Below are positions 4,849 to 39,993 of a DNA stretch of 64,000 nt, piece by piece. A program made the position numbers and the translations under genes. Source of the DNA: Betaproteobacteria bacterium (GTDB lineage: Bacteria; Pseudomonadota; Gammaproteobacteria; Burkholderiales; Ga0077523). Below the pieces are notes generated by a model. The model was given only the letters and a program-made list of their open reading frames with translations. It did no database searches and was not told where the DNA came from. The DNA lies in the NCBI GenBank assembly GCA_025350245.1, contig JANXYG010000056.1, forward strand, positions 1 through 64,000. The letters run 5' to 3'. Numbering within the stretch: the first letter of the stretch is position 1; each line of letters starts with the position of its first letter.

Positions 4849-4866
4849 TTGTAACACTACTGTCAC
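4849..4866 (+). promoter_or_regulatory. Candidate Pho box upstream of RND pump 1
   Basis: TTGTAAC-ACTA-CTGTCAC, two half-sites 11 bp apart; 13/18 by eye to the E. coli consensus CTGTCATAWAWCTGTCAY; no obvious -10 at the expected spacing. Confidence 0.4.
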
Positions 4867-14780: not shown

Positions 14781-16334
14781 CTAAAAGTCGTAGTTGGCGC
14801 GCACCGTGATCGCCCGCTCGCGATCGGTCACGAAACTGGTCAGCCCGCCATAGTTGGGATTCACCGTGACCGGCGTGTCGAACCGGGTATCGACGTAGTT
14901 CAGATAGAACCTGAGGTTCGGCGTCCAGGTCCATTTCAGCTGGGCGGTGAGGGCATTGGCCCGGTTGGTCGACACGGCTGCAAACGCGACATTCGTTGCA
15001 CCGGTACCGGTCCCCAGGCGTCCCGTGCCGACCGCATTTGCCGTGGTGAAATCCGATCCGTCATACGATGACAGCCGCAGGCCAAGCTCCCAGGCGCCCA
15101 GGCTCTTGCCACCCGGCGTGTAGTTCTGGATCGGCACGATGCGTCCGAACACGCCATTACGATACGCCTCGGCGTAGCGTTCGCCGGTGAGCATCCACAG
15201 GACCTCTACGTACGATGCCCGGATGTTGCGGTCATACGATCGATTGGCGATCGACGTTCCGGAAAAGTTCGACATGACGTACTCGCCCTGCACCTTGACC
15301 GGGCCATACGCGATCGCCGCTTCGACGCCTGCGCGGGTACGGGTGACAGACTGACCGCTGAACGGTTGCGTGTTGAAGAACGTGATGCCGCGACCCTCGG
15401 TGCGCTGGTTCAGACCGAAGCCGGTCGGCAGGTCGCCGACCGAGAACGCGCCAGCGAAATGCAGCACCGAGTTCGCTTCGATTCCAGCCAGTTCGGAAAT
15501 GTTGATGGTGGCACGACCAATGACATCGTTGTTGGCCTTGACCGCGACCGCGTCGTTGTTGTTTTTCCCCTGACCGGTCGAGAGGGCAAGTCCGTACGTC
15601 AGGCCGGGCATCGGAACGCCGTGCATCATGAAACCGCGCTCCTTCTGCGGCACCAGGTTGTTCACCAGTGACCGTTCCTGGAAATCCAGCCAGCGATCGC
15701 TTTGCTGTTCCTCCATCGAGAACGGCATCGTGAACTGACCCATGCGGAACTGAAGCGAATCGTTGTAGGCGATGTTGACCCAGGCAAATTCCAGATGGGA
15801 ATTGTTCACGAGATTGGCCAGGTCCCCGGTGATATCCCAGGTGAGATACTCGTTCCACTTGCCCTGGAGCGTAACGAAGGCCCGACGCACATCGAAGGTG
15901 TCGGCAGAGGTGTTTTCGGAGAACCTCCGGTAGTCGGCCTGGACCCGGCCGCTCAGTGCGAACGCGTTGCGGCCATCGCCGGACTGGAAGTTGATGCCGT
16001 TGTTGAATCGTCCGGCGAACTGCTCCTTCTGCGCCTCGGCCTGACTTTGCTGCTGGGCCTCCTGGAACGCCTTGCGGCGGCGTTCGGCGCGGGTGGTGGC
16101 GGATTCATCTCCGGTTTCGCCGGCGACCTCGTTGAACTCTTCTTCGGTGATGATGCCCTTGTCGCGAAGCTTCTCCAGCAAGCGGACGGTCTTGTCGCGC
16201 TTGGGTGGCGGCGTCGCGGGCTCGTCTTCAGCGAGCGCGCTCAGCGGCGACAGGATCAGACCGACCACGGCCGCGATGATGGTCCGGTAAAAAAACTTCG
16301 TTTGGGGCTTCGCCACTGGATATTTCCGCTGCAT
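14781..16334 (-). CDS. Porin of the OprO/OprP (phosphate-selective porin O and P) family
   Basis: N-terminal coiled-coil-like region after signal peptide, 'SGRVQADYRRFSENTSADTFDVRRAFVTLQGKWNEYLTWDITGDLAN..', C-terminal 'ITVRANYDF'. Start chosen at MQRKYPVAKPQ (ORF opens at 16388). Confidence 0.8.
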   Translation of the reverse strand: MQRKYPVAKPQTKFFYRTIIAAVVGLILSPLSALAEDEPATPPPKRDKTVRLLEKLRDKGIITEEEFNEVAGETGDESATTRAERRRKAFQEAQQQSQAEAQKEQFAGRFNNGINFQSGDGRNAFALSGRVQADYRRFSENTSADTFDVRRAFVTLQGKWNEYLTWDITGDLANLVNNSHLEFAWVNIAYNDSLQFRMGQFTMPFSMEEQQSDRWLDFQERSLVNNLVPQKERGFMMHGVPMPGLTYGLALSTGQGKNNNDAVAVKANNDVIGRATINISELAGIEANSVLHFAGAFSVGDLPTGFGLNQRTEGRGITFFNTQPFSGQSVTRTRAGVEAAIAYGPVKVQGEYVMSNFSGTSIANRSYDRNIRASYVEVLWMLTGERYAEAYRNGVFGRIVPIQNYTPGGKSLGAWELGLRLSSYDGSDFTTANAVGTGRLGTGTGATNVAFAAVSTNRANALTAQLKWTWTPNLRFYLNYVDTRFDTPVTVNPNYGGLTSFVTDRERAITVRANYDF

Positions 16335-16416
16335 TGCGCTGGCTCCGTCGATGGGATCGGGTGGTGCCGGCATCCGAGGAGCCGACAACCAATGCGCAGG
16401 ATTCTGATTTCCGAAT

Positions 16417-16434
16417 ATGACGACTTAATGACAA
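16417..16434 (-). promoter_or_regulatory. Candidate Pho box upstream of the OprO/P-like porin
   Basis: Minus strand TTGTCAT-TAAG-TCGTCAT, half-sites 11 bp apart; CAGAAT as candidate -10 ten bp downstream. Confidence 0.55.
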
Positions 16435-19976: not shown

Positions 19977-19994
19977 ATGTCATGGCCTTGTAAC
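19977..19994 (+). promoter_or_regulatory. Candidate Pho box upstream of phoB
   Basis: ATGTCAT-GGCC-TTGTAAC, half-sites 11 bp apart; TAGCAT as candidate -10 ten bp downstream. Confidence 0.6.
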
Positions 19995-20041
19995 AATCGT
20001 TACATAGCATCGCAATTAACTTAAAATTCAAGGAGTGATGC

Positions 20042-20728
20042 ATGGCTGCGACCATTCTAGTCGTCGAGGACGAGCCTGCGATCCAGGAACTGATCTCGTA
20101 CAACCTGAAGCAGGCGGGACACCAGGCGCTGAAAGCCGACAACGCCGAGCAGGCGATGAACCTGGTGCAGAACGAGCTGCCCGACCTGATCCTTCTCGAC
20201 TGGATGCTGCCGGGCATGTCGGGCGTCGAACTGGCCCGGCGCCTTCGCACCGACAAGCGCACCCGTACCATTCCGATCATCATGCTGACCGCTCGGTCCG
20301 ATGAGCAGGACAAGCTGACCGGCCTCGAGACCGGCGCCGACGACTACATCACCAAGCCGTTTTCGCCGCGAGAACTCAACGCGCGGGTCAAGGCGGTGTT
20401 GCGCCGGCGCGCACCGCAGATGACCGATGATGTCGTACAGGTCGGCGCCCTGAAACTCGATCCGGCCAGCCATCGCATCACCGGTAACAATGTGCCGGTG
20501 GAGCTCGGTCCGACCGAATTCCGGCTGCTTCACTTCCTGATGACGCACCCCGAGCGGGTGCACTCGCGCACCCAGTTACTCGATCAGGTGTGGGGCGACC
20601 ATGTGTTCGTCGAGGAGCGCACGGTCGACGTCCACATCCGGCGCCTTCGCAAGGCCCTTGAACCGACCACGCTCGACAGCCTCATCCAGACTGTCCGCGG
20701 CACCGGCTACCGGTTGTCGCCGAACTAA
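20042..20728 (+). CDS. phoB: Phosphate regulon response regulator PhoB
   Basis: 'ILVVEDEPAIQELISYNL', 'DWMLPGMSG', winged-helix output domain 'VHIRRLRKALEP..IQTVRGTGYRLS'; SD AAGGAG. Confidence 0.94.
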   Translation: MAATILVVEDEPAIQELISYNLKQAGHQALKADNAEQAMNLVQNELPDLILLDWMLPGMSGVELARRLRTDKRTRTIPIIMLTARSDEQDKLTGLETGADDYITKPFSPRELNARVKAVLRRRAPQMTDDVVQVGALKLDPASHRITGNNVPVELGPTEFRLLHFLMTHPERVHSRTQLLDQVWGDHVFVEERTVDVHIRRLRKALEPTTLDSLIQTVRGTGYRLSPN

Positions 20729-20787: not shown

Positions 20788-22131
20788 GTGAACGGGCACT
20801 GGCGCAAGCCGCTACTCACCGCAACGCTGATCGTCTTCAGCGCCTTGGTCCTGTGGCCGATCGCCGGGGCAACGGCAGCATCGTTGGCCGCGGCCACCGC
20901 GTTCGGTCTGCTGCTGGTCCACCACCTGCACAATCTCTCCGAGTTCCATCAGTGGCTGCTCGCGCCGAAGCTCGAGAACCTCCCGAATGGCAGCGGCAAA
21001 TGGGAACAACTGTTTTCTTATCTCGCCCGAATGATGCGGCGGCAGGGGCAGATCGAAGCCCAGCTTCAGGAAGCCCTCACCCGTTTCCAGAAGGCTGGCG
21101 CCGCGTTGCCGGAAGCCGTCGTCATTCTCGACAACGACAACCGCATCGACTGGTGCAACCCGAAGGCCGAGGCTTATTTCGGACTCGATCTCGACCGCGA
21201 CCGTGGCCAGCAGGTCACCTCCCTGATGCGCCAGCCGCAATTCGTCGAATACCTGCGGCAGACCGATTTCTCACTGCCCCTCAACCTTCGCGTGTCGCCG
21301 GCCGGCATCGGTGATGCCACGCTGTCGATCCAGATGGTGCCCTACGGCGACCGCGAGACCCTGTTGCTCGGTCGTGACATCACCCGTTGGGAACGCCTCG
21401 AGATCACGCGCCGCGATTTCGTGGCCAACGTGTCGCACGAACTGCGGACCCCGCTGACGGTGCTCAACGGATTTCTCGAGACGCTTTCCGACATGGAGCG
21501 CCCGGATCCCGAAATGACCGCACGGTCGCTGCTGCTAATGTCGCAACAGTGCGTGCGCATGAATCGGCTGGTGGAAGACCTGCTCACCCTGTCGAGGCTG
21601 GAAAGCTCGGTCGCGCCCCTGCGCGAGGAGACGGTGAACGTCCCTGAACTGGTGCAGCACCTGTACCAGGACGCACTATCGCTTTCCAATGGCAAACACG
21701 AGATCCACCTCAAGCTGGCGGATCGCGCCTGCGTCAGGGCCAACGCCGACGAAGTCCGCAGCGCTTTCGGCAACCTGGTCAGCAATGCCATCCGCTACAC
21801 GCCGGAAGGCGGGCGCATCGAACTTCAGTGGACCCTGCGCGGTGATGAGGGCATGTTCTCGGTCACCGACACCGGGATCGGCATCGAGATGCATCACATC
21901 GATCGCCTGACCGAACGCTTCTACCGGGTCGACCGCAGCCGGTCGCGCGAAACCGGCGGCACCGGTCTGGGACTCGCCATCGTCAAGCATGTATTGTCGC
22001 GCCATCAGGCGCATCTTGAGATCGTCAGTGAACCCGGCGAGGGTAGTATCTTCTCGGCGGTGTTTCCCGCCGATCGGATGGAGGCCGCACCGGTCGCGGC
22101 CAGGCCGAGCCAGGCAGTGGCTGTTTCGTAG
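20788..22131 (+). CDS. phoR: Phosphate regulon sensor kinase PhoR
   Basis: GTG start; PAS-like region; 'DFVANVSHELRTPLTVLNGFLETL', 'GGTGLGLAIVKHVLSRHQAHLEI'; adjacent to phoB. Confidence 0.92.
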   Translation: MNGHWRKPLLTATLIVFSALVLWPIAGATAASLAAATAFGLLLVHHLHNLSEFHQWLLAPKLENLPNGSGKWEQLFSYLARMMRRQGQIEAQLQEALTRFQKAGAALPEAVVILDNDNRIDWCNPKAEAYFGLDLDRDRGQQVTSLMRQPQFVEYLRQTDFSLPLNLRVSPAGIGDATLSIQMVPYGDRETLLLGRDITRWERLEITRRDFVANVSHELRTPLTVLNGFLETLSDMERPDPEMTARSLLLMSQQCVRMNRLVEDLLTLSRLESSVAPLREETVNVPELVQHLYQDALSLSNGKHEIHLKLADRACVRANADEVRSAFGNLVSNAIRYTPEGGRIELQWTLRGDEGMFSVTDTGIGIEMHHIDRLTERFYRVDRSRSRETGGTGLGLAIVKHVLSRHQAHLEIVSEPGEGSIFSAVFPADRMEAAPVAARPSQAVAVS

Positions 22132-36647: not shown

Positions 36648-37475
36648 ATGGCCACCTACGCCATCGGTGATCTGCAGGGTTGTTTTGCGCCGCTGCAGCA
36701 GTTGCTCGGCGAGATCGGCTACTCGCGCTCGCGTGACCGGCTGTGGTTCGTCGGTGACGTGGTCAACCGCGGGCCCGCCTCGCTCGAAGCATTGCGGTTC
36801 GTCCGTGATCTGGGCACGGACGCGGTGATGGTGCTGGGCAATCACGACCTGCACCTCCTGGTCTCGGCCTGGGGTGGCCGCAAGATCCACAAGGACGACA
36901 CGCTCGACGACATTCTGGCGGCGCCCGATCGCGTCGAACTGCTCGACTGGTTGCGGCGGCAGCCGCTGATGCACGTCGAGGACGACTATGCCATGGTGCA
37001 TGCCGGTCTGTTGCCGCAATGGACCATCGGCCAGGCCAGCGACCTGGCCCGCGAAGCCGAGGTCGCGCTGCGCGCCGACGACTACGAAGCGTTCTACGCT
37101 CGCATGTATGGCAACGACCCCGAGCGCTGGCACGATTCGCTCGCGGGCTGGGACCGGTTGCGCGTGATCGTGAATGCGATGACGCGACTGCGCATCTGCA
37201 CACCCGATGGCGTGATGGAGTTCGCGCACAAGGGCGAACTAGCCGACATTCCCGAGGGCTACCTGCCCTGGTTCGACGTGCCAGCGCGGCGCAGCACGTC
37301 GCACACGATCGTGTGCGGGCACTGGAGCGCGCTCGGACTCAGGTCCGGGTCACGGCTTCTGGCGCTGGATACGGGGTGTCTCTGGGGACGAGCCTTGACG
37401 GCGGTTCGACTGGAAGACCGGAAGCTTTTTTCCGTCGCGTGCCCGGCGCCGGCAAAGAAAGCGCGGCAGCAATGA
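36648..37475 (+). CDS. apaH: Symmetrical diadenosine tetraphosphatase
   Basis: '[20 protein letters not shown]', '[14 protein letters not shown]', 'LGNHDLHLL'. Confidence 0.94.
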
Positions 37476-38214
37476 GCGCGGCGGACTGCTCCGCCAGGTC
37501 GCGGCGGTGCAGTCCGAGCGTCGCGACCGGTTCGCAGAACGCGAGTTCGGCAACGGTCTCGCGCTGGCTCGCAAGCAATCGCATCGATTCGAGCAGGGAT
37601 CGCGTTCCGGTGTAGGTGGCGTGCTCGCTGCGGCGGCCATCGGGATAGAGATAACGCATGGCCACCGGTACCGCCGTGCCGCCGGTGGCCACGATGGGTT
37701 GCAGCAACGAGGCATGGAACGGCAGGACTTCGGTGCCATCGGTGGTCGTGCCCTCGGCAAAGACCACCACGCGGTCACCGGCGCGCAGCGCATCCGCCAC
37801 CGAATCGTTGATGCGAGCGGTATCGCGCCGCCGCTCGCGCTCGATGAACAGCGTGCCGCTGCGTGCGCTCAGCCAGCCGACCACCGGCCACTTGCGGATC
37901 TCGGACTTGGCGACGAAACGTGCCGACCATGCCGTGTTGATCAGGAAGATATCGAGCCACGAAACATGGTTTGCGACCAGCATCAGCGGCCCGTCGACAC
38001 GAGGTGGCGTGCCGATGATGCGCAACCGGATGCCGAGAATGCCGAGGCCGTTGCGGCACCACCGACACTTGAGCCGGACGCGCGCCTCGGGACCGACCAG
38101 CGGAAAGAACAATGCCGTGGTGAGCACGCCCTCGGTCAGATGCAGACCGAGGCGCAGCATGCGCCAGGCGCGAACGGCAGGACTGGTTTCCAGGGTGCCG
38201 GTATCAGTGTTCAT
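37339..38214 (-). CDS. 1-acyl-glycerol-3-phosphate acyltransferase-like (PlsC/OlsA-like)
   Basis: '[14 protein letters not shown]', '[23 protein letters not shown]'; overlaps the OlsB-like gene by 11 nt. Confidence 0.87.
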
Positions 38215-38962
38215 GCTTCATGAAGTGCCTCGCATACCGGCCATCGAGCCGGGACATCGGCAGCAGCATGAGCAGATCGGCGGTATTGAATTCGGGGTCC
38301 CAGGCGGGCGCGCCGCATACATAGGCGCCGCAGCGCACGTAACCCTTGATGAGCGGCGGCACGTCGGCGTCCAGCCGGCCGTTCAAGCGCGCCAACGGCA
38401 GCGGATGCCGGGGAAACACCCGGTACTCGATCGGGCTCATGCTGGAACCCGAAAGGGCATTGTAGATGCTCGCCGCGCCATGTCCTCCGTCGGCCATGCC
38501 GATGGAGGCGCAGCCGAGCATGTATTCGTAGTGATGCGAGAGCATATATTGCGCGAGCCCGTGCCACAGCATGGCGATGGTGCCGCCGTTCCGGTGCTCC
38601 GGATGCACGCACGAACGTCCGACCTCGACGGCGCGATCCCGCAGATGATCGAGCCGCGTCAGATCGAACTCGTTGTCGGAGTAGAAGCCGCCGAGCTTGC
38701 TTGCCTGGGCGCCGGTCAGGATGCGGTAGGTGCCGACCACCTCTCCCGACGCGACATCCCGCACGATCAGGTGCTCGCAGTGTGGATCGTAGCGATCGCG
38801 GTCGACACCGGGTTCCGGGCTGTCGAGCCTGGCACCCATCTCATCGGCAAACACCCGCCAACGCAGTTTCTGGGCTTCGCGCACTTCGGCTTCGGTCATG
38901 GCCAAGTGTACGCTGAGGCGGTTGCCGTGAGCCTTGCGGGTCCGCGGCAGTGTGCGCAACAT
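38204..38962 (-). CDS. olsB: OlsB-like N-acyltransferase (ornithine-lipid type GNAT)
   Basis: 'LRWRVFADEMGARL', 'EHLIVRDVASGEVVGTYRIL', 'EVGRSCVHPEHRNGGTIAMLWHGLAQYML'; partner PlsC-like gene downstream. Confidence 0.8.
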   Translation of the reverse strand: MLRTLPRTRKAHGNRLSVHLAMTEAEVREAQKLRWRVFADEMGARLDSPEPGVDRDRYDPHCEHLIVRDVASGEVVGTYRILTGAQASKLGGFYSDNEFDLTRLDHLRDRAVEVGRSCVHPEHRNGGTIAMLWHGLAQYMLSHHYEYMLGCASIGMADGGHGAASIYNALSGSSMSPIEYRVFPRHPLPLARLNGRLDADVPPLIKGYVRCGAYVCGAPAWDPEFNTADLLMLLPMSRLDGRYARHFMKHEH

Positions 38963-39010
38963 GAAGGCCTCCGTGATCTGTTCGGATGGCCAACAGGTTA
39001 CGAAGCGCCG

Positions 39011-39050
39011 GTGACGACCGCGTTACCTCAACGTGAAGCTTAGGTTAAAG
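39011..39050 (-). promoter_or_regulatory. Candidate tandem Pho boxes upstream of the olsB-like gene
   Basis: Plus-strand GTGAC, GTTAC, GTGAA, GTTAA at 39011, 39022, 39033 and 39044, exactly 11 bp apart (minus strand GTCAC/GTAAC/TTCAC/TTAAC). Confidence 0.5.
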
Positions 39051-39057
39051 CGATGGA

Positions 39058-39993
39058 TCAGCAGAAGGCGGTGCCGAACTCGTCCTTGAAACGGGTCTCG
39101 ATCTCGGCGCGGGTGAAATGGTGGTTCTGCGCGCCCCGCTTCGCGATCTTGAGAGCACCGATCAGCGATGCGAGCCTGCCGGTGAGTTGCCAGTCGATGC
39201 CGTTGACGATGCCGTAAAGCAGGCCGGCACGATACGCATCACCGCAACCGGTGGGATCAACGACCGCTTCGGGTTCGACGCTGGGAATCTCGTGCCGCAC
39301 ACCGCCGGTCCATACGGTCGAGCCCTCGGCGCCGCGGGTGACGATGAACGCTTTCACCTTTCGCGCCAATACCTCAATGCTCTCGCCGGTGCGCTCCTCC
39401 ACCAGCCGCGCTTCGTAGTCGTTGACGGTGACGTAGGTGGCCATGTCGATGAAGCGGCGCAGGTCGTCGCCGTCGAACATGGGCAGGCCCTGGCCCGGAT
39501 CGAAGATGAACGGCACGCCCGCTTCGTGGAACTCGCGCGCGTGCTGGACCATGCCGTCGCGCCCGTCCGGGGCCACGATGCCGACGCCGACATTCTTCGC
39601 TTCGGCGACATGATTGTCATGCGACTGCATCATCGCGCCGGGATGAAAAGCGGTGATCTGGTTGTCATCGAGATCGGTGGTGATGAAGGCCTGGGCGGTG
39701 AACGCGCCGGGCACTTCACGCAGGTGCGTCCGCGGAATGCCCAGGCTGTCGAGCCGCGCCGCATAGGGTGCGAAATCCTGGCCGACCGTGGCCATCATCT
39801 GCGGCGACCCACCGAGCAGATGCAGCGAATAGGCGATGTTGCCGGCGCACCCGCCGAACTCGCGCCGCATCTCGGGCACCAGGAAAGACACGTTCAGGAT
39901 ATGGATCTGGTCGGGCAGGATGTGGTTCTTGAACCGGTCCTGGAACACCATGATCGTGTCGTAAGCGACGGAACCGCAGATGAGAGCGTTCAT
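39058..39993 (-). CDS. PfkB-family carbohydrate/adenosine kinase
   Basis: 'ALICGSVAYDTIMVFQDRF', 'GGCAGNIAYSLHLLGG', 'VVDPTGCGDAYRAGLLYGI'. Confidence 0.93.
   Translation of the reverse strand: MNALICGSVAYDTIMVFQDRFKNHILPDQIHILNVSFLVPEMRREFGGCAGNIAYSLHLLGGSPQMMATVGQDFAPYAARLDSLGIPRTHLREVPGAFTAQAFITTDLDDNQITAFHPGAMMQSHDNHVAEAKNVGVGIVAPDGRDGMVQHAREFHEAGVPFIFDPGQGLPMFDGDDLRRFIDMATYVTVNDYEARLVEERTGESIEVLARKVKAFIVTRGAEGSTVWTGGVRHEIPSVEPEAVVDPTGCGDAYRAGLLYGIVNGIDWQLTGRLASLIGALKIAKRGAQNHHFTRAEIETRFKDEFGTAFC

Follow-up and report, generated by a model that had tools for sequence, protein, structure and literature searches.

The four direct repeats in front of the olsB-like gene in the 64-kb stretch of DNA analysed here (the window) very probably constitute a double-length Pho box, that is, an activator site for phosphorylated PhoB (PhoB~P) in the promoter of the olsBA operon under phosphate starvation. 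The first-pass annotation had proposed PhoB control on the basis of the half-sites GTGAC (39011), GTTAC (39022), GTGAA (39033) and GTTAA (39044), all of which are present at these positions in exact 11-bp phase and read, 5' to 3' on the minus strand that carries olsB, TTAAC, TTCAC, GTAAC and GTCAC. The TAACCT that it regarded as a weak -10 is located downstream of the last unit at 39000-38995, with a gap of exactly 10 bp. At the sequence level, this proposal is supported by a match to a matrix derived from phoB and pstS promoters, the presence of phoBR in the window, a PhoB recognition helix identical to that of Escherichia coli PhoB, the exact -10 spacing, and the conservation of the array in 51 distinct olsB promoters; PhoB binding, the direction of regulation and the phosphate response at the olsB promoter are what we infer from them. 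The minus-strand array reads CTTTAAC-CTAA-GCTTCAC-GTTG-AGGTAAC-GCGG-TCGTCAC, followed by 10 bases, TAACCT, GGAGG, and the olsB ATG at 38962. The features of the locus are as follows:

39058..39993, minus strand: PfkB-family kinase gene upstream of the array, in the same orientation as olsB
39044..39050, minus strand: Pho half-site unit 4 (distal), CTTTAAC, from sequence and matrix scan
39033..39039, minus strand: Pho half-site unit 3, GCTTCAC, from sequence and matrix scan
39022..39028, minus strand: Pho half-site unit 2, AGGTAAC, from sequence, matrix scan and genome-wide pattern
39011..39017, minus strand: Pho half-site unit 1 (adjoining the -10), TCGTCAC, from sequence, matrix scan and genome-wide pattern
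38995..39000, minus strand: -10 element TAACCT, separated from unit 1 by exactly 10 bp, with TA...T at the same distance in most relatives
38968..38972, minus strand: Shine-Dalgarno sequence GGAGG of olsB, from sequence
38204..38962, minus strand: olsB-like gene, 252 aa, GNAT Acetyltransf_5, with the two OlsB equivalog models as its best NCBIfam matches, each below its cut-off
37339..38214, minus strand: olsA-like gene, 291 aa, PlsC-type acyltransferase with NHVSWLD, overlapping olsB by 11 bp

The array begins 7 bp past the stop codon of the PfkB-family gene, within a 95-bp spacer in which we found neither an intrinsic terminator nor a sigma-70 -35/-10 pair nor any -35-type hexamer, and an ordinary sigma-70 promoter or terminator at this place was therefore rejected. 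What the spacer does contain are GTCA-type direct repeats with an exact 11-bp period, in four units, other periods failing, and a proximal half-site positioned 10 bp from a -10, a gap that is equal in the pstS and phoB promoters and in most related olsB promoters. TAACCT is a poor -10, and none of the units is strong on its own (each matches the E. coli consensus at 4-5 of 7 positions), so that the affinity of PhoB for the array may be low. According to the mechanism that we propose, PhoR would phosphorylate PhoB when phosphate is scarce, and four PhoB monomers, arranged as two head-to-tail dimers, would fill the four 11-bp direct repeats. The proximal dimer, in the place of a -35, would bring the sigma-70 polymerase to TAACCT, the -10 at a distance of exactly 10 bp, and OlsB and OlsA would then make ornithine lipid, which would replace phospholipid and save phosphate. 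The two proteins are likely to have this activity, as judged from an operon that encodes a GNAT (Acetyltransf_5) protein and then a PlsC-type acyltransferase. It should be noted that they score below the curated equivalog cut-offs (170 versus 320 bits for OlsB, and 136 versus 300 bits for OlsA), although OlsB and OlsA are still the top matches; the NCBIfam models are apparently built on alphaproteobacterial members.

The array was scored with a PWM consisting of a 7-bp unit matrix and a -10 matrix, trained on 49 phoB/pstS promoters (the phoB and pstS upstream regions of this genome and its relatives) and with olsB sequences excluded. The PWM scan covered the 64-kb window, and the genome-wide statements below rest on pattern searches of the 3.99-Mb genome. 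The four units plus the -10 at olsB score 25.8, which makes this the best four-unit site of the window on either strand. The alternative that GT-rich pentamers have lined up by chance in this short spacer, without any function, has a negligible probability. The units are degenerate, and when the looser form GTNAY x4 was searched with 2 mismatches the reversed control gave 1 match in the genome, as did the form itself, whose sole match is the olsB array. However, the observed score was never reached when the 95-bp spacer was put through 4000 dinucleotide shuffles (mean -26.7, sd 6.7, maximum 1.6), the array without the -10 term scores 19.8 against a shuffle maximum of 8.9, and the three-unit and four-unit scores were reached by 0/4000 shuffles. 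Apart from olsB promoters, nothing else in the window or in the 1.2 Mb searched on both strands matches the four-unit definition of the first-pass annotation.

A chance origin is also contradicted by the conservation of the array. We compared olsB homologues from 23 named loci and from 46 of 60 relatives; the relatives are Betaproteobacteria and mostly belong to different families. All 53 related olsB upstream regions (51 distinct) have p<0.01 under the four-unit model, beating at least 99% of their own shuffles; of the 4464 control segments taken from these loci, only 15 score as high as the lowest olsB promoter and 2 as high as the olsB median. When periods of 7 to 15 were compared in the 51 distinct promoters, 11 bp gave a mean best score of 19.4 and the others gave -11 to -16; a gap of 10 bp to the -10 is preferred (39/51 promoters at a score of 12 or more, the next best gap reaching 16/51). 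The phasing, whose conservation in orthologous olsB promoters the first-pass annotation had named as a check, is thus kept across many families, and the periodic half-sites are not lost in close relatives, since all 51 distinct promoters carry the array. Because the sequences flanking it have diverged and the gene upstream of olsB is often a different one, it is the site itself that is conserved. The shuffles, the control segments and the period tests together led us to reject a chance origin. An uncultured Ferrovum sp. has another strong Pho-like array directly 3' of olsB, before the next gene (L017:4751-4818).

The upstream neighbour bears on another alternative, namely that PhoB binds the array as a repressor, or that the site is silent, and that olsBA is transcribed together with the PfkB-family gene. 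The two genes are codirectional and only 95 bp apart, with no terminator found between them, so some PhoB-independent transcription of olsBA is possible; moreover, many PhoB sites of E. coli are transcriptionally inert, though these are intragenic (PMC10294691). Against this, the array has the spacing of an activator site relative to a conserved -10, just as the pstS and phoB boxes do, and many relatives keep it despite having a different gene upstream of olsB, which makes a repressing or silent site a remote prospect.

The reading as an activator site for PhoB~P requires the regulator, and the genome encodes a PhoB with a conserved DNA-binding helix. Both phoB and phoR are present in the same window as olsB, whereas pstS, like the other genes of the pst operon, is on a different contig. 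An end-to-end alignment is obtained between the effector (DNA-binding) domain of this PhoB and that of E. coli PhoB (1gxp), including the identical recognition-helix stretch RTVDVHIRRLRKALEP. In two order-level genomes with olsB, G031 and G018, no PhoB above the curated cut-off was found, the best ones (280 and 288 bits) being close misses. In G031, the PhoB-like regulator of 280 bits, below the cut-off, is encoded about 2 kb from olsB (contig C1:109216-112716). The regulatory genes and the other Pho boxes of this genome are:

20042..20728, plus strand: phoB (TIGR02154, 368 bits, above cut-off)
20788..22131, plus strand: phoR (TIGR02966, 433 bits, above cut-off)
19977..20010, plus strand: Pho box and -10 of phoB (ATGTCAT, TTGTAAC, 10 bp, TAGCAT), from matrix scan and genome-wide pattern
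16401..16434, minus strand: clear two-unit Pho box of the Porin_O_P gene (TTGTCAT-N4-TCGTCAT, 10 bp, CAGAAT), from matrix scan
14781..16388, minus strand: phosphate-selective porin (Porin_O_P) gene (PF07396)
G000 contig C64:13402-13433 (L125/L128): Pho box before the btaA-like gene, 10 bp from TAGTCT, from genome-wide pattern
L128:6150-7400, minus strand: btaA-like (DUF3419) gene, from Pfam family membership

The same motif precedes phoB and pst genes of this genome. Under the two-unit model the promoters of phoB (26.5 bits), Porin_O_P (19.9) and olsB (16.8, third) lead the window; after these come a second, overlapping register of phoB (11.2) and then background at 9.5 or less, and the pstS promoter of the same genome reaches 25.8 bits. 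The pattern GTMAY-N6-GTMAY-N10-TANNNT has 3 matches in the 3.99-Mb genome and 0 in the reversed control. They are the promoters of phoB, olsB and the btaA-like gene, and the exact motif therefore marks the regulator itself and two phosphorus-free lipid loci; the pstS and porin boxes are missed because each deviates at one position. These observations also weigh on the view that the array is bound by another response regulator of the OmpR/PhoB family, in which case the signal would not be phosphate. Direct repeats with 11-bp spacing are common in that family, and the genome has at least five more of its members with a DNA-binding domain. Nevertheless, such a regulator is very unlikely, given that the matrix comes from phoB/pstS promoters, that the same motif marks the phoB, pstS and Porin_O_P promoters of the genome, and that the function of the genes fits phosphate sparing.

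Two further repeats were noticed in the window. A good two-unit Pho-like repeat, TTGTAACACTACTGTCAC, at 4849-4866 (plus strand), some 35 bp upstream of the ATG that starts an AcrB-type RND transporter, has no TANNNT at 10 bp. At 19999-20005 (plus strand), another half-site, the third in the 11-bp series (GTTACAT, or TTCAT in relatives), overlaps the phoB -10, as it does in about half of 30 phoB promoters versus 0-5% of the pstS, olsB and btaA promoters. In E. coli, a site for repression of phoB occupies the corresponding position, but on the other strand (PMC6194859), and comparison with it suggests possible autorepression here too.

The btaA-like gene encodes a 416-aa DUF3419 protein (PF11899, 382 bits) and has a methyltransferase gene downstream; DUF3419 is the family to which BtaA belongs, the enzyme that begins betaine-lipid (DGTS) synthesis. 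Very little space separates the -10 from the start codon, and the mRNA may therefore have almost no leader. Homologues of the gene in 13 relatives (10/11 same-genus genomes) also have Pho boxes. These lipid promoters differ from those of phoB (30) and pstS (19), in which unit 3 or 4 exceeds the background 95th percentile in only 3-16%. In the 51 olsB promoters, units 3 and 4 are kept in about 80% and unit 5 in 4%; by PWM, the 14 btaA promoters have unit 3 in 79% and unit 4 in 71%. Both extra units are present in 36/51 olsB, 9/14 btaA, 1/30 phoB and 1/19 pstS promoters, that is, in 45/65 lipid promoters versus 2/49 phoB/pstS promoters (Fisher p = 1e-13, a statistic that ignores kinship). Units 3 and 4 match the E. 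coli consensus at 4.1 and 4.6 of 7 positions in olsB, at 2.3 and 2.3 in phoB, and at 1.9 in random sequence. For btaA the four-unit structure is only partly true (9/14 by PWM, 0/14 by strict core), and unit 3 is lost in the btaA-like promoter of this genome. The proximal pair is slightly weaker in olsB than in phoB/pstS: the matrix first used for this comparison was trained on phoB/pstS and hence biased, and the untrained E. coli consensus gave the same result, though with a smaller difference (p = 8e-5).

Genes of E. coli to which PhoB binds less tightly are expressed more slowly, and phoB, for which the affinity is among the highest, is an early one (PMC6194859). Together with the weaker core pairs of the olsB and btaA promoters, this suggests that lipid remodelling may have a higher PhoB~P threshold than phoB/pstS. 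Tentatively, and with more doubt than confidence, the Pho regulon of this order may be split by architecture, phoB and pstS having one strong two-unit box, and olsBA and btaA having longer arrays of weaker units. The PhoB~P level would in that case set an order of events laid down in the DNA, with scavenging first and membrane rebuilding only in deep starvation.

In common with the E. coli Pho box (PDB 1gxp; PMC6194859, PMC3348028), the olsB array has head-to-tail half-sites with 6 bp between the GTCA-type tracts (11-bp period) and a proximal unit that is some 10 bp away from the -10, with no -35 hexamer. Compared with that box, however, the units have a higher G+C content and are more degenerate ([GT]T[AC]AC), and there are four of them instead of the two of a standard full site. 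Control of ornithine lipids by PhoB is already known, because putative Pho boxes have been reported before olsB in Burkholderia sensu lato (PMC7814305), in Agrobacterium (PMC3972451) and, together with a phoR deletion, in Acinetobacter (PMC11828411), and because OlsA/OlsB are phosphate-responsive in Pseudomonas putida BIRD-1 (PMC5082522). As far as the excerpts of the first three accounts go, gene, regulator and promoter position are the same as here, the boxes are single predicted ones, and a contrast between four and two units does not appear in those excerpts. A review covers the betaine-lipid route and its PhoB control in Sinorhizobium (PMC3972451), where btaAB are phosphorus-free lipid genes under PhoB; the putative counterpart here has a Pho box before it and is assigned by Pfam family only. 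The lineage differs from the published cases in being Betaproteobacteria mostly outside Burkholderia, and what seems less ordinary is that the double-length box is usually typical of lipid-remodelling promoters and not of the core phosphate genes phoB/pstS.

In summary, the analysis provides a usable GC-rich Pho-box matrix for this order, and its predictions place the ornithine-lipid synthesis of a betaproteobacterial group dominated by uncultured members in the PhoB regulon, and probably betaine-lipid synthesis as well. If the split between two-unit and four-unit boxes acts as proposed, it would be a simple way of encoding in the DNA the order in which the phosphate-starvation response unfolds.
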